From Escherichia ruysiae (lineage in GTDB: Bacteria > Pseudomonadota > Gammaproteobacteria > Enterobacterales > Enterobacteriaceae): a stretch of 64,000 bases of DNA. Under the pieces are notes generated by a model. The model did not search any database. It was not told where the DNA came from and worked only from the letters and a program-made list of their open reading frames with translations. The stretch is from positions 2,108,001 through 2,172,000 of the forward strand of contig NZ_JAVIWS010000001.1 of the NCBI RefSeq assembly GCF_031323975.1, read 5' to 3'. Positions 12,033 through 21,034 of this stretch are shown one piece after another (position 1 is the first letter of the stretch; each line of letters starts with the position of its first letter). Position numbers and translations under genes: made by a program.

Positions 12033-12671
12033 ATGCCCGGGCGCTTTGAACTAAAACCAACCCTGGAGAAAGTCTGGCACGCGCCGGATAATTTTCGCTT
12101 CATGGACCCGCTGCCGCCGATGCATCGTCGGGGGATCATTATTGCTGCCATTGTATTGGTGGTCGGTTTTCTGCTTCCGTCTGATGATACGCCCAACGCG
12201 CCGGTAGTGACGCGTGAAGCGCAGCTGGATATTCAGTCACAATCACAACCGCCAACGGAAGAGCAACTACGGGCGCAATTAGTTACCCCACAAAATGATC
12301 CTGATCAGGTAGCTCCAGTCGCCCCTGAACCGATACAGGAAGGCCAACCGGAAGATCAGCCACAAACCTCGCAAACGCAACCATTCCAGCCAGATAGTGG
12401 AATAGATAATCAGTGGCGCTCTTATCGTGTCGAACCAGGTAAAACGATGGCGCAGCTATTCCGCGACCACGGACTACCCGCCACCGATGTCTATGCGATG
12501 GCGCAGGTAGAAGGCGCGGGTAAGCCACTGAGTAATTTGCAAAACGGGCAGATGGTGAAAATCCGCCAGAACGCCAGCGGCGTAGTGACGGGCTTAACCA
12601 TTGATACGGGGAATAATCAACAGGTTCTGTTTACCCGCCAGCCGGATGGCAGTTTTATTCGTGCGCGGTAG
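12033..12671 (+). CDS. ytfB: Cell-division-associated envelope protein YtfB (OapA/LysM-like)
   Basis: A 212-residue single-pass inner-membrane protein. It has a short cytoplasmic N-terminus, one membrane helix at about residues 34-48, a Gln/Pro-rich linker at about 65-125 and a C-terminal opacity-associated protein A (LysM-like) domain from about 128. In E. coli it has been linked to cell division and glycan binding. The start with the AGGAGGAAACC ribosome-binding site was chosen over one 36 bases upstream. The gene overlaps the convergent TetR gene by 17 bases, which marks the edge of the accessory region. Confidence 0.93.
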
Positions 12672-13302
12672 ATGAAGGGTCAACGAGAAGCCAGCTAAGG
12701 ATCGTCTCTTTGATGACCTTACGTCTGGCTTCCAGCGCCTGCGGTGAAACCATACTGAGGTGATAAACCAGGCCAAGCGTATGCTGGTTGATCAAATAAT
12801 ATCCCCCGAGCGCGGCAATATTAATATTCACCTGCAACGGGTCGATATCTGGATTAAAAATATTACGTTTCTTCCCTTCAGCCAACAAAGATTCCATTAA
12901 CTGCAAATGCGCGTGGTTAATTTCCTGAAGACGCTGTGATTTTGCATAATGCACACCTTTGCTCTGGTTTTCACTATGCACAATTTTTAAAAACCAGGGG
13001 TTAGCAATGTAATAATCCCAGGTAAAATCGATGATTTTTTCAATTGCTTTTTGTGGAGGAAGACCTGAAACATCCAAGGATTTTTCTTTTTGCCGAATAT
13101 CGTTCCAGGTATATTCCAGCACTTCGATAAATAAATTTTCTTTATTTCCAAAGTGGTGATAAACCGTCTGTTTACTGCACCCTGCGGCCTTCACAATATT
13201 ATCGACTCTGGCCCCTTCATAACCATATTCGGCAAATTCATTAACCGCACATAATAATAGTTTTTCCTTCAGGCTTTGTACGTTGCTGGTATCAAGATAC
13301 AT
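12655..13302 (-). CDS. TetR/AcrR-family regulator of the accessory catabolic operon
   Basis: A protein of 215 residues from the chosen start (MYLDTSNVQ), which has GGGGAAG seven bases upstream. In-frame starts at 13326 and 13374 would lengthen it. The N-terminal HTH is typical of the family: [19 protein letters not shown] near residues 33-51, followed by GNKENLF. The C-terminal ligand domain ([12 protein letters not shown]) resembles the RutR type. It is divergent from the six-gene operon with 211 bases between, which hold a palindrome that is a likely operator. It is probably a ligand-responsive repressor of the operon and of itself; the ligand is unknown. I do not recall a full-length counterpart at this site in K-12. 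Confidence 0.85.
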
Positions 13303-13424
13303 AACGCTTCCCCATCTCCTCTTCATGATGTCTATCATAACCTGATTTGATTTCAGCTCCAGAAAAAAGGGCAAAAACTCGTACTTTCATCAGGTTATCA
13401 AATGTCCTGTGATCCTTATCGCAA

Positions 13425-13446
13425 ATCAACCAACCAGATGGTTGAT
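13425..13446. promoter_or_regulatory. Candidate operator of the TetR regulator
   Basis: A perfect inverted repeat ATCAACCA-6-TGGTTGAT lies in the divergent promoter region, 68 bases before the first operon gene. An overlapping tighter repeat CAACCA-GA-TGGTTG (13431-13444) shares the same centre. Size, symmetry and place fit a TetR-family operator. A second pair of 10-base arms (ATAACCTGAT 13337-13346; ATCAGGTTAT 13389-13398) lies nearer the regulator. Confidence 0.6.
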
Positions 13447-13513
13447 CTTTCTTGCCGCACGCCGCAAGCTAATCGTCACTTAGGGAAACAATATTTAAAA
13501 AGAGAGCTATTGT

Positions 13514-14305
13514 ATGAAATCCACTCGTCCTGTTGCCGTTATCACTGGAGCCGCACGTGGCATTGGTAAGGGGTGTGCGCTGGAGCTTGCCCGTGGCGGA
13601 TTTAATCTGTTGATTAACGATCGCCCCGATGCCGACAGCGTAGAAAAATTACATGCCACGCAACAGGAATGTCTGGCAGAAGGCGTGGAAGTGATTTGCT
13701 TCCCTGCCGATGTTGGCGATCTCTCCCTGCATGAAGAGATGCTCGACGCGGCGCAAAATCAGTGGGGGCGTCTGGACTGCCTGCTCAATAACGCGGGCAT
13801 TTCAGTGAAAAAGCGCGGTGACCTTCTCGACCTCGAACCGGACAGCTTCGACCAAAACATTGCCATTAATACCCGCGCGCCGTTCTTCCTCGCACAGGCA
13901 TTCAGTAAACGTCTGCTCGCACAGCCAAAACCAGAAACAGAATTCCCGCACCGCTCAATTATTTTTGTCAGTTCCATCAACGCCATCATGCTGGCGATGA
14001 ATCGCGGCGAATACACAATTGCCAAAACCGCCGTTTCTGCCGCTGCTCGTCTGTTTGCTGCTCGCCTTTGCAACGAACAAATTGGCGTCTATGAAGTGCG
14101 CCCTGGTCTCATCAAAACCGATATGACTATTCCGGCAACGGCTTATTACGACGAATTGATTGCCAAAGGACTGGTGCCGTGGGGACGTTGGGGTTATCCG
14201 GCGGATATCGCCTCCACTGTCCGCGCGATGGCGGAAGGCAAACTGATTTACACCTGTGGTCAGGCAGTCGCCATCGACGGTGGCTTAAGTATGCCGCGCT
14301 TCTGA
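13514..14305 (+). CDS. Short-chain dehydrogenase/reductase, first gene of the accessory operon
   Basis: A 263-residue classical SDR that oxidises or reduces a hydroxyl/keto group with NAD(P). The cofactor motif TGAARGIG is at residues 11-18, NNAG at 92-95, the catalytic Ser at 153/154 and Tyr167-x3-Lys171 (YTIAK). The ending GGLSMPRF is typical. Automated pipelines would call it a 3-oxoacyl-ACP reductase, but FabG is elsewhere in E. coli and the context is catabolic. The subfamily with IGVYEVRPGLIKTDMT is, as I recall, common in sugar and polyol operons. Nine bases separate it from the next gene. The substrate is unknown. Confidence 0.85.
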   Translation: MKSTRPVAVITGAARGIGKGCALELARGGFNLLINDRPDADSVEKLHATQQECLAEGVEVICFPADVGDLSLHEEMLDAAQNQWGRLDCLLNNAGISVKKRGDLLDLEPDSFDQNIAINTRAPFFLAQAFSKRLLAQPKPETEFPHRSIIFVSSINAIMLAMNRGEYTIAKTAVSAAARLFAARLCNEQIGVYEVRPGLIKTDMTIPATAYYDELIAKGLVPWGRWGYPADIASTVRAMAEGKLIYTCGQAVAIDGGLSMPRF

Positions 14306-14314
14306 GGCTAAACC

Positions 14315-15157
14315 ATGAGAGATCTGTTACAACGCCCGGATTTATTCAGTATCAATACCGCGACGCTGGGCTATAAAGTGCCGCTGCCCGCCATTATTGA
14401 TGCCTGTGCCGCACGCGGTATCGGTGCGATCGCCCCCTGGCGCAGAGAGTTGCAGGGTGAAGATCTTCAGCAGATCGCCCGCCAGCTTGCCGTCAATAAC
14501 ATGCGCGTTTCCGGTTTATGCCGTAGCAGCTACTACACCGCGCCGACGCTGGCGGAACGCAAACTGGCAATTGATGATAACCGCCGGGCGCTGGACGACG
14601 CAGCGGTGCTGAACGCCGCCTGTTATATGCAGGTGGTTGGCGGTCTGCCAACGGGCACTAAAGATCTATATGAAGCGCGAGAACAAGTGAAACAAGGGAT
14701 TCGCCAGTTGCTGCCACATTCGAAAGATGTCGGCGTGCCAATTGCGCTGGAGCCGCTGCACCCAATGACCGCCGCCGATCGCTCTTGCCTGTGCACGTTA
14801 CGCCAGGCGCTGGACTGGTGTGATGAACTCGATCCCGATGGCGAATTTGGCCTCGGCGTGGCTGTGGATGTTTACCATGTCTGGTGGGATCCGGATCTGG
14901 CCAGCCAGATCCTGCGCGCCGGAAAACGTATTCTCGCGTTTCATGTTTCCGACTGGTTAGTGCCGACCACCGATCTGGTCAATGACCGGGGAATGCCGGG
15001 AGATGGCGTGATAAATATTCCGTCAATTCGTCGACTGGTTGAAAACGCCGGATTTAATGGCGCTATTGAACTGGAAATATTCTCACCGTACTGGTGGCAG
15101 AAAGATATTAACAGCACGCTGGATATTAGCGTCGATCGCATCGCGCATTATTGCTAA
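14315..15157 (+). CDS. TIM-barrel sugar isomerase/epimerase-like protein
   Basis: A 280-residue xylose-isomerase-like TIM-barrel protein (AP endonuclease 2 superfamily). Candidate metal ligands are Glu146 (ALEPLHP), Asp185 and His188 (AVDVYHVWWD), His210 (AFHVSDW) and Glu252 or Glu254 (IELEIFS). The motif DRGMPGDGVI is typical of isomerase/epimerase members. The superfamily includes 2-keto-myo-inositol dehydratase/isomerases and 3-dehydroshikimate dehydratase, so dehydration is also possible. It sits nine bases after the SDR and nine before the crotonase, so it is clearly co-transcribed. The exact reaction cannot be read from the sequence. Confidence 0.8.
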   Translation: MRDLLQRPDLFSINTATLGYKVPLPAIIDACAARGIGAIAPWRRELQGEDLQQIARQLAVNNMRVSGLCRSSYYTAPTLAERKLAIDDNRRALDDAAVLNAACYMQVVGGLPTGTKDLYEAREQVKQGIRQLLPHSKDVGVPIALEPLHPMTAADRSCLCTLRQALDWCDELDPDGEFGLGVAVDVYHVWWDPDLASQILRAGKRILAFHVSDWLVPTTDLVNDRGMPGDGVINIPSIRRLVENAGFNGAIELEIFSPYWWQKDINSTLDISVDRIAHYC

Positions 15158-15166
15158 GGAATAATC

Positions 15167-15943
15167 ATGAGTGACCAACCCGTTCTGTTCAGCAGAGCGG
15201 CGGCTTCCTGCCGTCTGACGTTGAACCGTGAAGATAAATGTCATGCTATTAACGAAGAGATGATTGAATCTCTCGACCATTATTTAAATGAAATTGAAAA
15301 CGACACCACATTACGATTAGTCGAATTAACGGCAACCGGCGATAAATTCTTTTGTGCGGGCGGTGATATTAAATCGTGGTCGGCCTATTCGCCATTAGAT
15401 ATGGGCAGAAAATGGATTAAACGCGGTAATGACGTTTTTAATCGCCTGCGCAATCTACCGCAATTAACGGTTGCGAATCTCAACGGTCATACCATCGGCG
15501 GCGGTATTGAACTTGCCTTGTGCTGCGATATTCGAATCGCTCGCCCCTGCGCGAAATTTTCTAACCCGGAAGTCATGCTCGGCATGGTGCCTGGCTGGAT
15601 GGGCATTGAACGCGTGCTTAATCAGGTCGGCCCGGTGGTCGGTCGCCAGATGCTGATGCTAGGTAAACGTCTGACGGCGCATGAAGCCCAGGCGGCGAAT
15701 TTAATTGATGAAGTAGTAGAAAAAGAACAGGTGGAAAGCTGGATGGCGAACCAGTTAGCGCAGCTGGAAAAATGTGGTCCGGTGGCACTGGCGCATATTA
15801 AGCAGCTGATTCTGGCACTGGAAAATAAACACGCTGAATACCCACACCAGTTACTGGCTGGATTAATGTCCGCCACTCAGGATTGCCAGCAGGCGACGCA
15901 GGCATTTGCCGAAAAAAGTAGCGTGAGCTTCCATAATCAATAA
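15167..15943 (+). CDS. Enoyl-CoA hydratase/isomerase (crotonase) family protein
   Basis: A 258-residue crotonase. The oxyanion-hole motif FFCAGGDIKSW is at residues 61-71. Both acidic residues of true hydratases appear conserved: Glu115 in GGGIELALCCD and Glu135 in NPEVMLG. That favours hydration or dehydration of an enoyl-CoA over pure isomerisation. An AAGGAAT ribosome-binding site precedes the ATG. It is followed nine bases later by the CoA-transferase that would make its CoA-thioester substrate. It lacks the dehydrogenase domain of FadB-type fusions. Confidence 0.88.
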   Translation: MSDQPVLFSRAAASCRLTLNREDKCHAINEEMIESLDHYLNEIENDTTLRLVELTATGDKFFCAGGDIKSWSAYSPLDMGRKWIKRGNDVFNRLRNLPQLTVANLNGHTIGGGIELALCCDIRIARPCAKFSNPEVMLGMVPGWMGIERVLNQVGPVVGRQMLMLGKRLTAHEAQAANLIDEVVEKEQVESWMANQLAQLEKCGPVALAHIKQLILALENKHAEYPHQLLAGLMSATQDCQQATQAFAEKSSVSFHNQ

Positions 15944-15952
15944 GGAAATTGT

Positions 15953-17494
15953 ATGCGTAAGATAACAACCGCCGAGGCACTGGCGGCGCAAATTCAGGAT
16001 GGCGCAACCATTGCCATTAGCGGTAACGGCGGCGGCATGGTGGAAGCCGACCATATTCTGGCAGCCATTGAAGCGCGTTTCCTGCAAACCGGACACCCGC
16101 GCGATCTGACATTAATCCACTCGCTGGGCATTGGCGATCGCGACTGCAAAGGCACGAACCGCTTCGCTCATGCTGAAATGCTCAAACGCATTATTGCCGG
16201 ACACTTTACCTGGTCGCCCAAAATGCAGGCGCTGGTAAAAAATAACGCGATTGAAGCCTATTGTTTTCCTGGTGGCGTTATTCAGGCGTTGCTACGGGAG
16301 ATCGGTGCTGGACGTCCGGGGCTTTTTACCCACGTTGGGCTGGGATCGTTTGTTGATCCACGCAATGGCGGCGGAAAGTCGAACGCTTGCACCACCGAGG
16401 ATCTGGTAGAACTGATTGAAATCGATGGTGAAACCAAACTCCGCTATCGCCCTTTCAAAGTGGACTATGCCATTTTGCGTGGCACTTATGCCGACCCACG
16501 TGGCAACGTCAGCCTCGAAGAAGAAGCGATTGATATGGATAGCTATTCGATGGCACTGGCAGCACACAACAGCGGTGGCAAAGTGTTCGTACAGGTGCGC
16601 GATGTACTGGAAGCCGGTGCCATTGAACCACGCCGGGTCAAATTACCGGGGATTCTGGTTGATGGCATCGTTGAATACCGCGAACAACCGCAAACCTATC
16701 TTGGCGGTTACGACCTGACGATCAGCGGTCAACATCGCCGTCTGAGTTCTAACGACGCTATTGAACTGGTTAGTCATCCGGTACGTCGCTTAATTGCCCG
16801 TCGGGCAGCGCGCGAGCTGGTGGCAGGCGCTTCAACCAACTTTGGCTTTGGTATCCCCGGCGGTATTCCTGGGGTTGCGCTGCGTGAAGGCGTTCCTTAC
16901 CAAAGTTTATGGCTAAGCGTCGAGCAAGGCGTGCATAACGGTATGATGCTGGATGACGCGTTTTTCGGCTGCGCCCGTAACGCCGACGCCATTATCCCTT
17001 CGCTGGATCAATTCGAGTTCTACAGCGGCGGCGGCATCGACATTACTTTCCTCGGCATGGGCGAGATGGATCAACATGGTAACGTCAACGTCTCACACCT
17101 GAACGGCAATTTAATCGGCCCCGGCGGATTTCTCGAAATTGCGCAAAACGCCCGTAAGGTGGTGTTCTGCGGCACGTTCGACGCCAAAGGCAGCAAGATT
17201 GATGTAACGCCAGATGGCTTGCATATCGCTCAGTCAGGTCAAATCCCTAAACTGGTTACTCAGGTGGAAAAAATCACTTTTAGCGCCGCCTACGCACAGC
17301 ACAGCGGTCAGGAAGTGTTGTATATCACTGAACGCGCGGTGTTTCAGTTAACGGCAGAAGGCGTTGAATTAATTGAAATCGCGCCGGGCGTGGAGATTGA
17401 CCGCGACATTCTGCCGTTCATGGCTTTCCGTCCAATTATCAACCAGCCGCGCCTGATGGAAAGTAGCCTGTTTACGCCAATGGAGGACGCATGA
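15953..17494 (+). CDS. Family I acyl-CoA:carboxylate CoA-transferase
   Basis: A 513-residue fused alpha/beta CoA-transferase of the YdiF/acetate CoA-transferase type. The N-terminal half has the glycine-rich ISGNGGGMVEADHIL and the GSFVDPRNGGGKSN motif near residues 131-144. The second half has Glu324 in LWLSVEQGVHNG, the expected catalytic glutamate, and GGGIDITFLG near 359. It would move CoA from acetyl-CoA or another donor onto the imported acid. It overlaps the flavoprotein start by four bases (ATGA), a sign of translational coupling. K-12 has a paralogue, ydiF, elsewhere. Confidence 0.88.
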   Translation: MRKITTAEALAAQIQDGATIAISGNGGGMVEADHILAAIEARFLQTGHPRDLTLIHSLGIGDRDCKGTNRFAHAEMLKRIIAGHFTWSPKMQALVKNNAIEAYCFPGGVIQALLREIGAGRPGLFTHVGLGSFVDPRNGGGKSNACTTEDLVELIEIDGETKLRYRPFKVDYAILRGTYADPRGNVSLEEEAIDMDSYSMALAAHNSGGKVFVQVRDVLEAGAIEPRRVKLPGILVDGIVEYREQPQTYLGGYDLTISGQHRRLSSNDAIELVSHPVRRLIARRAARELVAGASTNFGFGIPGGIPGVALREGVPYQSLWLSVEQGVHNGMMLDDAFFGCARNADAIIPSLDQFEFYSGGGIDITFLGMGEMDQHGNVNVSHLNGNLIGPGGFLEIAQNARKVVFCGTFDAKGSKIDVTPDGLHIAQSGQIPKLVTQVEKITFSAAYAQHSGQEVLYITERAVFQLTAEGVELIEIAPGVEIDRDILPFMAFRPIINQPRLMESSLFTPMEDA

Positions 17495-19560
17495 GCCAGA
17501 CTGATGACGCCATCCTCGATGCGCTGACGCACGTCACTTTCCCGAAGGGTTTTGTGTCAGCAGAGCCAACGTCAATTGTCACGGTGGACGGTGTTGATTA
17601 CCCACTCTGGCAAGTTGATGCTCTGGTCGTTGGTAGCGGCGCGGCAGGATTACGTGCGGCGGTTGAACTGAAACGTCGCCAGCAAAATGTGCTAATCGCC
17701 ACCGCCGGGTTATACATGGGAACATCGGCCTGCTCCGGTTCCGATAAACAGACGCTGTTTACCGCCGCAACGGCGGGCAACGGCGATAACTTCGCAAAAC
17801 TTGCTGAAGCACTGGCGAGCGGCGGTGCGATGGATCACGACACGGCGTATGTCGAAGCGGTCGGTTCCCTACATACCCTTGGCGGGCTGCAATATCTCGG
17901 TCTGGAATTACCGGAAGATCGCTATGGTGCAATTCTCCGTTATCAGACCGACCATGACGAAGCCGGACGCGCAACCTCCTGTGGACCGCGCACTTCTCGT
18001 CTGATGGTGAAAGTATTGCTCGAAGAAGTGCAGCGCCTCGCCATCCCACTGTTGACCAGTGCAACGGTGATTAAACTGCTGCATCAACGCGGTGAAAACG
18101 GCGAAGATCGTGTGGCCGGGGCTATCCTCGCAACCGGTTCCCGCGCCCATAACCCGTGGGGGCTGGCAATTGTCACTGCGCCCAATGTGGTACTGGCAAC
18201 AGGCGGGCCGGGCGAGCTTTATCGCGACAGTGTTTATCCGCATAAATGCTTTGGCTCGCTGGGGCTGGCGCTGGAAGAAGGTCTGACGCTAACCAATCTG
18301 ACCGAAAGCCAGTTTGGTATAGGCACGCCGCGCAGCACGTTTCCGTGGAATTTGTCTGGCACCTATGTGCAGGTGATCCCGTATATCTATTCCGTGGATG
18401 CCGAGGGTAACGAGTATAACTTCCTCGCGGATTACTATCGCACCACCCAGGAACTGGCTTCAAACATCTTCCGTAAAGGCTATCAGTGGCCGTTCCACGC
18501 TACGCGAGTGATGGATTTCGGCTCAAGCCTGTTAGATATGGCGGTGGCACAAGAGCAGCAATCAGGCCGCCTGGTTTTTATGGATTTCAAGCGAAATCCT
18601 GAAGCGGTGCCTGGTGATTTGCCCTTCTCATTAGATCGACTGGACGACGACGTTCGCGCATATCTGGAAAATAACGACGCTCTGGCGCCATCGCCTATCG
18701 AACGTCTGCAACGGATGAATCCATTGTCCATCTCACTGTATAAGATGCACGGTTACGATCTCACCACGCAGCCGTTGCAGTTTGCCATGAACAATCAGCA
18801 TATGAATGGCGGCATTGAGGTTGATATCTGGGGGCAAACTTCTCTGCCCGGTTGTTTTGCGGTGGGAGAAGTCGCCGGAACTCACGGTGTTACCCGACCT
18901 GGCGGCGCGGCGCTGAATGCCGGACAAGTTTTTGCCGTGCGTCTGGCGCGTTTTATTGGCTGCACACAAAAGCGATCTGTTGAAGATGATGTCGCACAAC
19001 TGGCATCTCCGGCACTAAATTCAATCAGAGAGATCATCACTCAGGCGCACGATAATGGAAACGGGATGCCGTTGTCTGCGGTGAGGGAAAAAATCCAGGC
19101 ACGAATGTCTGACTACGCTGGGTTTATTTGCCATGGCGATAAAGTCCGGCGCGCCACTCGCGATGCCCTGCTATTGAATGAATTTGTACAACGGCATGGT
19201 TTGGCTATCAAACACGTGGGCGAAGTTGCCGAATTGTTTATGTGGCGGCATATGGCGCTGACGTCTGCCGCCGTATTGACACAGTTGACGCATTATATTG
19301 ATGCAGGCGGCGGCAGTCGTGGGGCGAGGATGATTATTGATCCACAAGGCGAATGTCTACCACAAACTCGTTGCGGCGCAAAAGAAGAATGGCGCTTTCG
19401 CTCTGAACTCGCTGAAGACAAAAATCACAAATTAACGATTCAATATTCGCAAGGTTCTTTTATTACCGAAGTGAAGTCGTTACGTGTGCTACCGCGTATT
19501 AATGGTATTTACTTTGAAAAAAACTGGCCAGATTTCCTAAAGGGAGAGATTTACACATAA
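17491..19560 (+). CDS. FAD-dependent oxidoreductase, fumarate-reductase/succinate-dehydrogenase flavoprotein type
   Basis: A 689-residue soluble flavoprotein. The Rossmann FAD motif VDALVVGSGAAGLRAAVEL is at residues 42-60. The FrdA/SdhA/NadB-like active-site region NNQHMNGGI is at 434-442, the second FAD motif GEVAGTHGV at 459-467 and RPGGAALNAGQ follows. A helical C-terminal domain runs from about 500. There is no signal or Tat peptide and no iron-sulfur subunit gene nearby, so its electron partner is not evident. It could introduce or reduce a C=C bond next to a carboxylate, replacing an acyl-CoA dehydrogenase. Substrate unknown. Confidence 0.85.
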   Translation: MSQTDDAILDALTHVTFPKGFVSAEPTSIVTVDGVDYPLWQVDALVVGSGAAGLRAAVELKRRQQNVLIATAGLYMGTSACSGSDKQTLFTAATAGNGDNFAKLAEALASGGAMDHDTAYVEAVGSLHTLGGLQYLGLELPEDRYGAILRYQTDHDEAGRATSCGPRTSRLMVKVLLEEVQRLAIPLLTSATVIKLLHQRGENGEDRVAGAILATGSRAHNPWGLAIVTAPNVVLATGGPGELYRDSVYPHKCFGSLGLALEEGLTLTNLTESQFGIGTPRSTFPWNLSGTYVQVIPYIYSVDAEGNEYNFLADYYRTTQELASNIFRKGYQWPFHATRVMDFGSSLLDMAVAQEQQSGRLVFMDFKRNPEAVPGDLPFSLDRLDDDVRAYLENNDALAPSPIERLQRMNPLSISLYKMHGYDLTTQPLQFAMNNQHMNGGIEVDIWGQTSLPGCFAVGEVAGTHGVTRPGGAALNAGQVFAVRLARFIGCTQKRSVEDDVAQLASPALNSIREIITQAHDNGNGMPLSAVREKIQARMSDYAGFICHGDKVRRATRDALLLNEFVQRHGLAIKHVGEVAELFMWRHMALTSAAVLTQLTHYIDAGGGSRGARMIIDPQGECLPQTRCGAKEEWRFRSELAEDKNHKLTIQYSQGSFITEVKSLRVLPRINGIYFEKNWPDFLKGEIYT

Positions 19561-19655
19561 TAATTTTTAATATGTTCTCTGTACCTGATTTTTATTAACT
19601 ATTACACGGAATTACCAACAACCAGGGTTTATTAATATAATTAAAAGGTTTAAAC

Positions 19656-20933
19656 ATGAATAAAATAAAGAATTATCGGTGGCATATGATTGCCCTCGTA
19701 TGCTTTATCACTGTAATCAATTATCTGGACAGAACGGCGTTAGGTATTGCAGCTCCAACTATTATGGAGACAACTGGAATAACCAAAGAGCAATATTCAT
19801 GGATTGTCAGTGCATTCCAGTTGGCCTATACATTAGGGCAACCGGTAATGGGCTTCTTTATTGATACCGTGGGTTTGAAGTTAAGTTTTGCGATATGTGC
19901 CGCAGTCTGGGGGCTGGCAACAATGGGCCATGCGCTGACCGGAACATGGTCAGGTCTGGCATTTATGCGCGCCCTGATGGGTTTCAGCGAAGCGTCAGCC
20001 ATTCCGGCGGGTGTAAAAACCGCATCAACATGGTTCCCGGCAAAAGAGCGTGGCGTGGCGACAGGTGTTTTCAATATGGGCACCTCACTCGGCGCGATGC
20101 TTGCACCACCGTTGATTGCCTGGTGCATTATGTTTCATAGCTGGCAATTTGCGTTTATTGTCTCAGGTAGCCTTGCTTTGCTCGCGGCTTTATTTTGGTT
20201 CTTTTGTTATAAAGATCCGAAAGATGCCAAACGCCTTTCTGATGAAGAGCGCCACTATATTGAATCAGGGCAAGAACAGCATCTTAAAACAGATAAGAAA
20301 GAAAAAACGTCAATCAAGCATATCCTCAGCCAACGTAATTTCTGGGGGATTGGCATCGCGCGGTTTCTCGCAGACCCGGCATGGGGAACCATTAACTTCT
20401 GGGTGCCGATTTTCTTCGTCGAAACGCTGCATTTTAGCCTGAAAGAAATTGCCATGTTCGTCTGGCTGCCTTTCCTGCTGGGCGACCTCGGCTGTTTAGC
20501 CAGTGGTTTTGTCGCGAAGTTCTTCCACGATCGCGGCGTGAGTTTAATTAACTCACGAAGAATTACCTTCACTATTGCAGCCGTCATTATGATGACGATT
20601 GGTCTGGTGAGTATTGTCGAAAATCCCTACATTGCCGTATTACTGATTAGTATTGGCGCGTTCTCGCATCAATGTCTTTCTACTGTGGCAGCAACTCTGG
20701 GTGGCGATCTGTTCAAAAAAGACGAAGTCGCTACCGCAGTGGGTATGGCAGGAGCCTGTGCGTGGAGCGGTCAGTTGATTTTCAACCTGTTCATCGGGGC
20801 ATTCGTTCACATTATCGGCTTCGCGCCGTTCTTTATTGCCCTGGCTTTCTTTGACATTATTGGCGCTATTGCGTTATGGACGCTTATCAAAGTTAAAGAT
20901 GAAGAACCGCAAGTACAGTTAGCGACAAGCTAA
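19656..20933 (+). CDS. MFS transporter, anion:cation symporter (ACS) family
   Basis: A 425-residue permease with about twelve membrane helices. The family signature INYLDRTALGIAAPTI is at about residues 22-37 and a cytoplasmic loop rich in charged residues lies near 190-225. ACS members (ExuT, GudP and similar) import hexuronates, glucarate and other organic or sugar acids with protons. That agrees with a CoA-transferase acting on a carboxylate. It follows the flavoprotein after a 95-base AT-rich gap that could contain its own promoter. A strong terminator follows at 20991. Confidence 0.88.
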   Translation: MNKIKNYRWHMIALVCFITVINYLDRTALGIAAPTIMETTGITKEQYSWIVSAFQLAYTLGQPVMGFFIDTVGLKLSFAICAAVWGLATMGHALTGTWSGLAFMRALMGFSEASAIPAGVKTASTWFPAKERGVATGVFNMGTSLGAMLAPPLIAWCIMFHSWQFAFIVSGSLALLAALFWFFCYKDPKDAKRLSDEERHYIESGQEQHLKTDKKEKTSIKHILSQRNFWGIGIARFLADPAWGTINFWVPIFFVETLHFSLKEIAMFVWLPFLLGDLGCLASGFVAKFFHDRGVSLINSRRITFTIAAVIMMTIGLVSIVENPYIAVLLISIGAFSHQCLSTVAATLGGDLFKKDEVATAVGMAGACAWSGQLIFNLFIGAFVHIIGFAPFFIALAFFDIIGAIALWTLIKVKDEEPQVQLATS

Positions 20934-20990
20934 TTAATAGATATCAGAGCGTTATATTGTCAGTTGTGACGCTTTCGCTATAAAGCAAAA

Positions 20991-21009
20991 CGCCGACCAA
21001 TGGTCGGCG
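20991..21009. terminator. Bidirectional terminator of the accessory operon and the rpsF operon
   Basis: Perfect stem CGCCGACCA / TGGTCGGCG with a one-base centre, flanked by an A-run on the left and T-run on the right, so it can end transcription from both sides. It separates the MFS gene from rplI and marks the right boundary of the accessory region. Confidence 0.88.
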
Positions 21010-21034
21010 TTTTTACGTCTCGTTGAATAACGAA

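Follow-up and report, generated by a model that had tools for sequence, protein, structure and literature searches.

Hexuronates are degraded by the Ashwell pathway, which involves UxaC, UxaB/UxuB, UxaA/UxuA, KdgK and Eda, with ExuT as importer. Two other described systems bear on the locus presented here. In the deoxyribonate pathway of Klebsiella michiganensis a sugar acid is likewise consumed by way of CoA thioesters, with MFS import and an SDR-type dehydrogenase; its cluster includes a CoA-synthetase, a thiolase, a lactonase and a glycerate kinase, all absent from the operon studied here (PMC6365646). The oxcT-ecdH-acaD genes of Anaerostipes, a putative operon, are assigned to 3-oxopropionate (PMC8355322).

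The window is the whole 64,000-nucleotide stretch of the Escherichia ruysiae genome that was analysed. The original prediction placed in it, between ytfB and rplI, a TetR regulator facing six closely packed genes of a catabolic operon. The seven ORFs are present at 12655..20933, with the predicted spacing: 9 bases separate the SDR and TIM barrel genes, the TIM barrel and crotonase genes, and the crotonase and CoA-transferase genes, the CoA-transferase and flavoprotein genes overlap by 4 bases, and 95 bases precede the MFS gene. The features of the locus are as follows.

12655..13302, minus strand: TetR-family regulator of 215 aa, in convergent overlap with the 3' end of ytfB; the K-12 ytfA pseudogene is a remnant of it
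13425..13446, no strand: palindrome ATCAACCA-N6-TGGTTGAT, probable TetR operator
13514..14305, plus strand: SDR, NF009386 (PRK12745) equivalog, probable NAD(P)-dependent dehydrogenase acting on a hydroxyl
14315..15157, plus strand: TIM barrel protein, AP_endonuc_2 (xylose-isomerase-like), probable sugar-acid isomerase or dehydratase
15167..15943, plus strand: crotonase (enoyl-CoA hydratase type), best solved relative 5zai, a 3-hydroxypropionyl-CoA dehydratase
15953..17494, plus strand: YdiF-like CoA-transferase, Pfam CoA_trans, best solved relative YdiF
17491..19560, plus strand: flavoprotein of the SdhA/FrdA/NadB fold, the hallmark of the family, with no gene for an iron-sulphur or membrane partner in the operon
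19656..20933, plus strand: MFS importer, at a position taken by a TRAP transporter in other E. coli

The seven proteins were assigned to families with Pfam and NCBIfam. They match TetR_N and TetR_C_29, AP_endonuc_2, ECH_1, CoA_trans, FAD_binding_2 and MFS_1, and the SDR scores 419.9 bits against NF009386, for a cut-off of 250. Read from a TTG codon, the TetR ORF is 239 aa long; the true length is probably the 215 aa of the CE10 annotation. The UxaC isomerase, the UxuB/UxaB reductase and the UxuA/UxaA dehydratase were not found among the seven proteins in these family searches. As predicted, CoA and flavin enzymes are combined with neither a thiolase nor an acyl-CoA dehydrogenase among the operon ORFs (Pfam), which does not fit ordinary beta-oxidation. 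The claim that the combination belongs to no named pathway agrees with a search of open PMC full texts, which returned no published assignment of the operon and no assigned role for the flavoprotein family. A PHROGs scan added nothing.

The longest conserved block across nine aligned upstream regions is the palindrome at 13425..13446. It occurs once in the 4.6-Mb genome. In shuffled windows, with at most two mismatches allowed, the mean number of matches was 0.02. The exact palindrome was found in eight of the 126 loci examined, one of which is from the genome under study and two of which are the same Entomohabitans stretch; near-copies are present in L008 and L011. This palindrome is thus likely to be a single dedicated operator of the TetR regulator. 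Promoter and terminator counts were within chance expectation. A promoter-like match (10/12) lies at 19612-19641, within the gap between the flavoprotein and MFS genes, and the MFS gene might have an additional promoter of its own. About 100 bases separate the MFS gene from rplI (20934-21034); yjfZ, located 3' of the operon in CE10 and retained by K-12, is missing here.

The same operon is found between cycA-fklB-ytfB and rplI-rpsF, as in the window, in Klebsiella spallanzanii (L011) and in Entomohabitans (L012, the same stretch as L120); the locus is therefore old in the family and not a recent island. The gene order is repeated in other genera (L011, L012 and L118). The genome that carries L118, G621, has two flavoprotein clusters, a full E. 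coli-type operon (L118) and a compact set (L119) of LacI, CoA-transferase, crotonase, NRAMP-like transporter and flavoprotein genes. In K-12 the six genes are absent, in line with the original prediction, and the ytfB-rplI interval consists of yjfZ and the ytfA pseudogene. Compared with CE10, K-12 has lost everything between a point within the TetR gene and a point beyond the MFS gene, a match of 103 columns (82%) in the SDR gene being the exception. On this sequence comparison, the operon was lost by deletion in K-12, leaving the ytfA pseudogene behind. At least 80% of the operon is present in one place in 3067 of 5426 complete E. coli genomes. The flavoprotein is encoded in 17 of 295 sampled genomes of the family, in five of them (the genome under study included) at no less than 78% identity and in 12 at 58-62%, and in 5 of 398 sampled genomes of the phylum; retention across the family is patchy. 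The dN/dS values relative to E. coli CE10 are 0.010-0.078 for the seven genes, a sequence signature of purifying selection on all of them. The dS of the MFS gene to CE10 is 0.096, versus 0.25-0.48 for the other six genes, pointing to recombination at the transporter end, which is the site of the MFS/TRAP exchange described below.

The flavoprotein has 287 relatives in named genomes, and the best 80 of the 287 loci were analysed. Their hosts are enterobacteria, Rhizobiales, Rhodobacterales, Propionivibrio, Accumulibacter, Planctomycetota, Lentisphaerales and others; the best segment of each protein is at least 53% identical, and an alignment of 41 of them contains long invariant blocks. The predicted model (pLDDT 84) matches the SdhA/FrdA/NadB superfamily: the 50 matches listed by Foldseek and by VIA-align are all relatives of SdhA, FrdA, NadB, APS/PAPS-reductase or flavocytochrome c. 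The fold is therefore that of the FrdA/SdhA/NadB family across the chain. In a sequence-profile alignment, uncertain in its gapped regions, the C-terminal substrate-Arg position of FrdA is kept as R469, but the positions of His232, Arg287 and His355 of the FrdA substrate site are not conserved. The dicarboxylate-site His/Arg set is thus reduced to R469, which indicates that the active site differs although the fold is shared; a reasonable guess at the substrate of this enzyme would be a carboxylate with a carbonyl close by.

Many of the best 80 loci are incomplete (46 are of at least 20 kb). They contain a CoA-transferase in 20 cases, a crotonase in 26 and both in 19, an SDR in 22 and a TIM barrel in 22, a Gfo protein in 34, each GMC type in 30, a sugar ABC transporter in 25, a TRAP transporter in 10, an acyl-CoA dehydrogenase in three and Etf in one (all raw counts, without control windows). 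Of the 20 loci with a CoA-transferase, seven represent the operon described here, from Escherichia, Klebsiella or Entomohabitans, and 13 of the 19 loci with both enzymes lie outside it; the one CoA-transferase locus that lacks a crotonase, L010, is incomplete. In a search of 17 genomes for YdiF-type CoA-transferases, five of the six with a TetR-SDR-Gfo-TIM-MFS-FAD arrangement had none at E 1e-30 (L018, L020, L021, L023 and L031) and the sixth, L017, had one match at 39%, so that CoA activation is not a constant feature of these clusters; two such enzymes, at 39-41%, are encoded elsewhere in the genome of Brenneria (L016, which lacks Gfo). One run of genes on a Rhizobium plasmid combines CoA-transferase, crotonase, aldehyde dehydrogenase, sugar ABC transporter, two GMC proteins, Gfo, flavoprotein, sugar kinase and an annotated aldolase. 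Plasmids of Janthinobacterium, Caballeronia and Sagittula carry CoA-transferase, crotonase, SDR, TIM barrel and a dihydrodipicolinate-synthase-like protein; the 11-17 kb examined contain no annotated flavoprotein. The partner annotated as 'dihydrodipicolinate synthase family' at 9706-10869 of L096 belongs to Pfam DUF993 (589.6 bits), a name not encountered in open PMC full texts. Two Planctomycetota loci have a DUF4914 protein (about 1005 bits) after the flavoprotein (L025 6628-8508; L034 2551-4653). A more distant flavoprotein, at 36% identity, is part of a run in Subdoligranulum variabile (L087 2131-10932) with IlvD/Edd, LacI-like, TIM barrel, NADH:flavin oxidoreductase family, zinc alcohol dehydrogenase and SDR genes; visual inspection was the basis for assigning the LacI and SDR genes of this run and the Etf genes of L019.

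The original prediction that a sugar or organic acid is imported was supported: the MFS protein is 47.6% identical to K-12 ExuT over 424 aa, and its best matches in its own genome are the ExuT orthologue (48%; itself 99% identical to K-12 ExuT) and then proteins at 28, 27 and 24%. ExuT was the sole named MFS protein compared, the others being own-genome matches. The MFS gene was matched in 1679, the TRAP genes in 1474 and the flavoprotein gene in 3116 of the 5426 E. coli genomes, as separate totals not paired genome by genome, and exchange of MFS for TRAP was seen in place in L009 and in E. coli strain 13KWH46, whose operon-type TRAP binding protein is encoded at 12374-13345 of L170. Relatives of the TRAP binding protein (DctP) are present in 34 of 295 genomes of the order; 14 contexts, at 53-60% identity, were fetched, leaving nine at 53-56% and eleven with only 44-50% matches. 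All 14 contained uxuA and uxuB and/or uxaC, 13 an ExuR/UxuR-type regulator, eight kdgK and seven eda. A separate DctP query matched none of 185 genomes. Thirteen type-specific columns, AENN to AENS among them, distinguish operon-type from glucuronate-operon-type binding proteins (8 vs 14 sequences); the operon context was seen for one of the eight, L009, and the seven others (P0121, P0123 and P0125-P0129) were grouped with it by similarity. The TRAP structures that come nearest, 4ovr and 4n15 among them, presumably hold glucuronate or galacturonate. The TRAP binding protein of L019, a betaproteobacterial relative, has its closest match in 4nx1/4ovp (286 bits), with taluronate or mannuronate as the presumed ligands.

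By sequence identity and gene context, the operon importers are closest to ExuT or to the glucuronate-operon TRAP lineage; two unrelated and interchangeable importers, both of hexuronate lineages, argue for a hexuronate-type acid as substrate. The genome also encodes intact UxaC, UxuA and ExuT outside the operon, so that a system for plain glucuronate or galacturonate would be redundant, and this, together with the type-specific columns of the binding proteins, makes a variant or derivative likelier than plain glucuronate. Judged from sequence, the substrate is probably a hexuronate variant that UxaC, UxuA and ExuT cannot use. Against this, importers adjoining flavoprotein relatives are also PcaK/AAHS-like, ShiA-like, FucP-like, NRAMP-like or of the sugar ABC type.

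The CoA-transferase resembles the YdiF structure 2ahu_A over its full length (384.5 bits, residues 6-508), and the best solved match of the crotonase is 3-hydroxypropionyl-CoA dehydratase, by a small margin (139.9 bits vs 129.4 for the next). The pair occurs together with an acyl-CoA dehydrogenase in L019 and L047. Because the pair is optional, has this companion in two loci, includes a crotonase closest to a C3 enzyme and resembles the Anaerostipes genes, the simplest reading is that it forms a terminal module acting on a short 3-oxo or 3-hydroxy acid. We consider it about an even call that the TetR-controlled operon imports and breaks down a sugar acid of the hexuronate type, which is probably a variant or derivative of glucuronate beyond the reach of UxaC/UxuAB. 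One probable operator, two importers of hexuronate lineages and flavoprotein relatives often found beside a CoA-transferase and a crotonase are the observations from which we infer the substrate and the order of steps. The SDR would produce an alpha-hydroxyketone, which the TIM barrel protein would isomerise or dehydrate; the flavoprotein would then shift two electrons across the C-C bond between ketone and carboxylate, in a succinate/fumarate-like geometry. The six-carbon acid would be broken to give a short 3-oxo or 3-hydroxy acid, converted to a usable acyl-CoA by the CoA-transferase and the crotonase, and the remaining carbon would enter the housekeeping KDG/pyruvate or triose routes.

The main mechanistic rival is a CoA-driven elimination on the uronate itself. 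The CoA-transferase and crotonase would act on the six-carbon acid, forming a uronate-CoA from which the C4 group (water or methanol) is removed across C4-C5, and the resulting 4,5-unsaturated uronate would be converted to KDG by housekeeping enzymes. A hexuronyl-CoA is, on chemical reasoning, formally a beta-hydroxyacyl-CoA; both glutamates of the crotonase hydratase motif, presumably catalytic, align with those of 5zai; and a PfkB kinase in a related cluster scores best, below cut-off, against the KDG-kinase model, another PfkB being present in L093. We nevertheless regard this route as unlikely, given the closeness of the crotonase to a C3 enzyme (despite the small margin), the acyl-CoA dehydrogenase in two of the 20 CoA-transferase loci, which fits a short acid, and the five related genomes that lack a YdiF-type CoA-transferase.

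With the hexuronate-type acid as the preferred substrate, two other classes have to be weighed. An open-chain aldonate or keto-aldonate would account for the score of the MFS protein against the D-galactonate subfamily model TIGR00893 (314.9 bits, cut-off 395) and for the IlvD/Edd-family dehydratase within the Subdoligranulum cluster; it is distinctly unlikely, as ExuT is far closer than the other own-genome MFS matches and the TRAP exchange also leads to hexuronates. The quinate/shikimate-like compound first guessed is not supported, both operon importers in E. coli being of hexuronate lineages. A hydroaromatic acid of this type, a cyclic polyhydroxy carboxylate similar in shape to a pyranuronate, would suit the importers beside the flavoproteins of Brenneria (PcaK/AAHS-like, 369 bits, cut-off 770) and Raoultella (ShiA-like, 270 bits, cut-off 538). 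However, no quinate or shikimate enzyme is named among the classified neighbouring proteins (most neighbours are unclassified), and the quinate/shikimate dehydrogenase and dehydroquinate/dehydroshikimate dehydratase families are not named in the operon by Pfam or NCBIfam, where the SDR and TIM barrel proteins could stand in for them; we hold this substrate class to be very unlikely. Gene content does differ between genera, but the idea that the six genes are chance neighbours deserves next to no credence, in view of the short gaps, the single operator, the near-constant pairing of crotonase with CoA-transferase, the low dN/dS to CE10 and the gene order recurring in other genera; the locus is not a chance neighbourhood, and the prediction of one catabolic operon is supported.

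Several candidates were dropped: kojic acid, quinate/shikimate and deoxyribonate after a literature check, in which a matching cluster was not found or the enzyme set differed, and C-glycosides and levoglucosan for want of their partner genes in the window. Inositol was retained solely as a parallel to the CoA-transferase/crotonase cassette.

The operon is present in over half of the complete E. coli genomes and absent from the model strain, so that K-12 physiology is blind to it; its substrate should be a compound found in the habitats of E. coli. The operon also provides a testable context for a deeply conserved flavoprotein family, with the TRAP solute-binding protein as an easy entry, since its ligand would name the pathway.

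Compared with known systems, the operon shares with Anaerostipes oxcT-ecdH-acaD, placed in the propionate branch of inositol fermentation, a CoA-transferase and a crotonase, to which some relatives of the operon add an acyl-CoA dehydrogenase; the likeness is one of gene families, and the window operon differs by its SdhA-fold flavoprotein and its lack of iol genes (PMC8355322). The related cluster L055 has a point of likeness to the levoglucosan route (Lgd), in that a Gfo protein resembling levoglucosan dehydrogenase lies beside its flavoprotein, but this protein scores 295 bits, below the cut-off of 650, and the window operon has no Gfo gene. With FrdA, SdhA and NadB the flavoprotein shares the fold over nearly the whole chain, the C-terminal Arg and the His-Gly that precedes it; unlike them, it has not kept the other substrate-site positions, and the operon encodes no FrdB-like partner or membrane anchor. 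The Ashwell pathway has an importer lineage in common with the operon, through ExuT (48%) and through the TRAP relatives in uxuA/uxuB/uxaC clusters, but none of its enzymes is encoded there, and an SDR, a TIM barrel protein, a flavoprotein, a CoA-transferase and a crotonase are found instead. We tentatively propose, with rather less than even confidence, that these genes represent a second hexuronate-type route alongside the Ashwell pathway; a soluble SdhA-like flavoenzyme would carry out redox chemistry on an oxidised sugar-acid ring and the products would be finished as CoA thioesters; such a route would be widespread in enterobacteria, rhizobia, Rhodobacterales and Planctomycetota, and more distantly in Clostridia, and would have been overlooked because K-12 deleted the operon.
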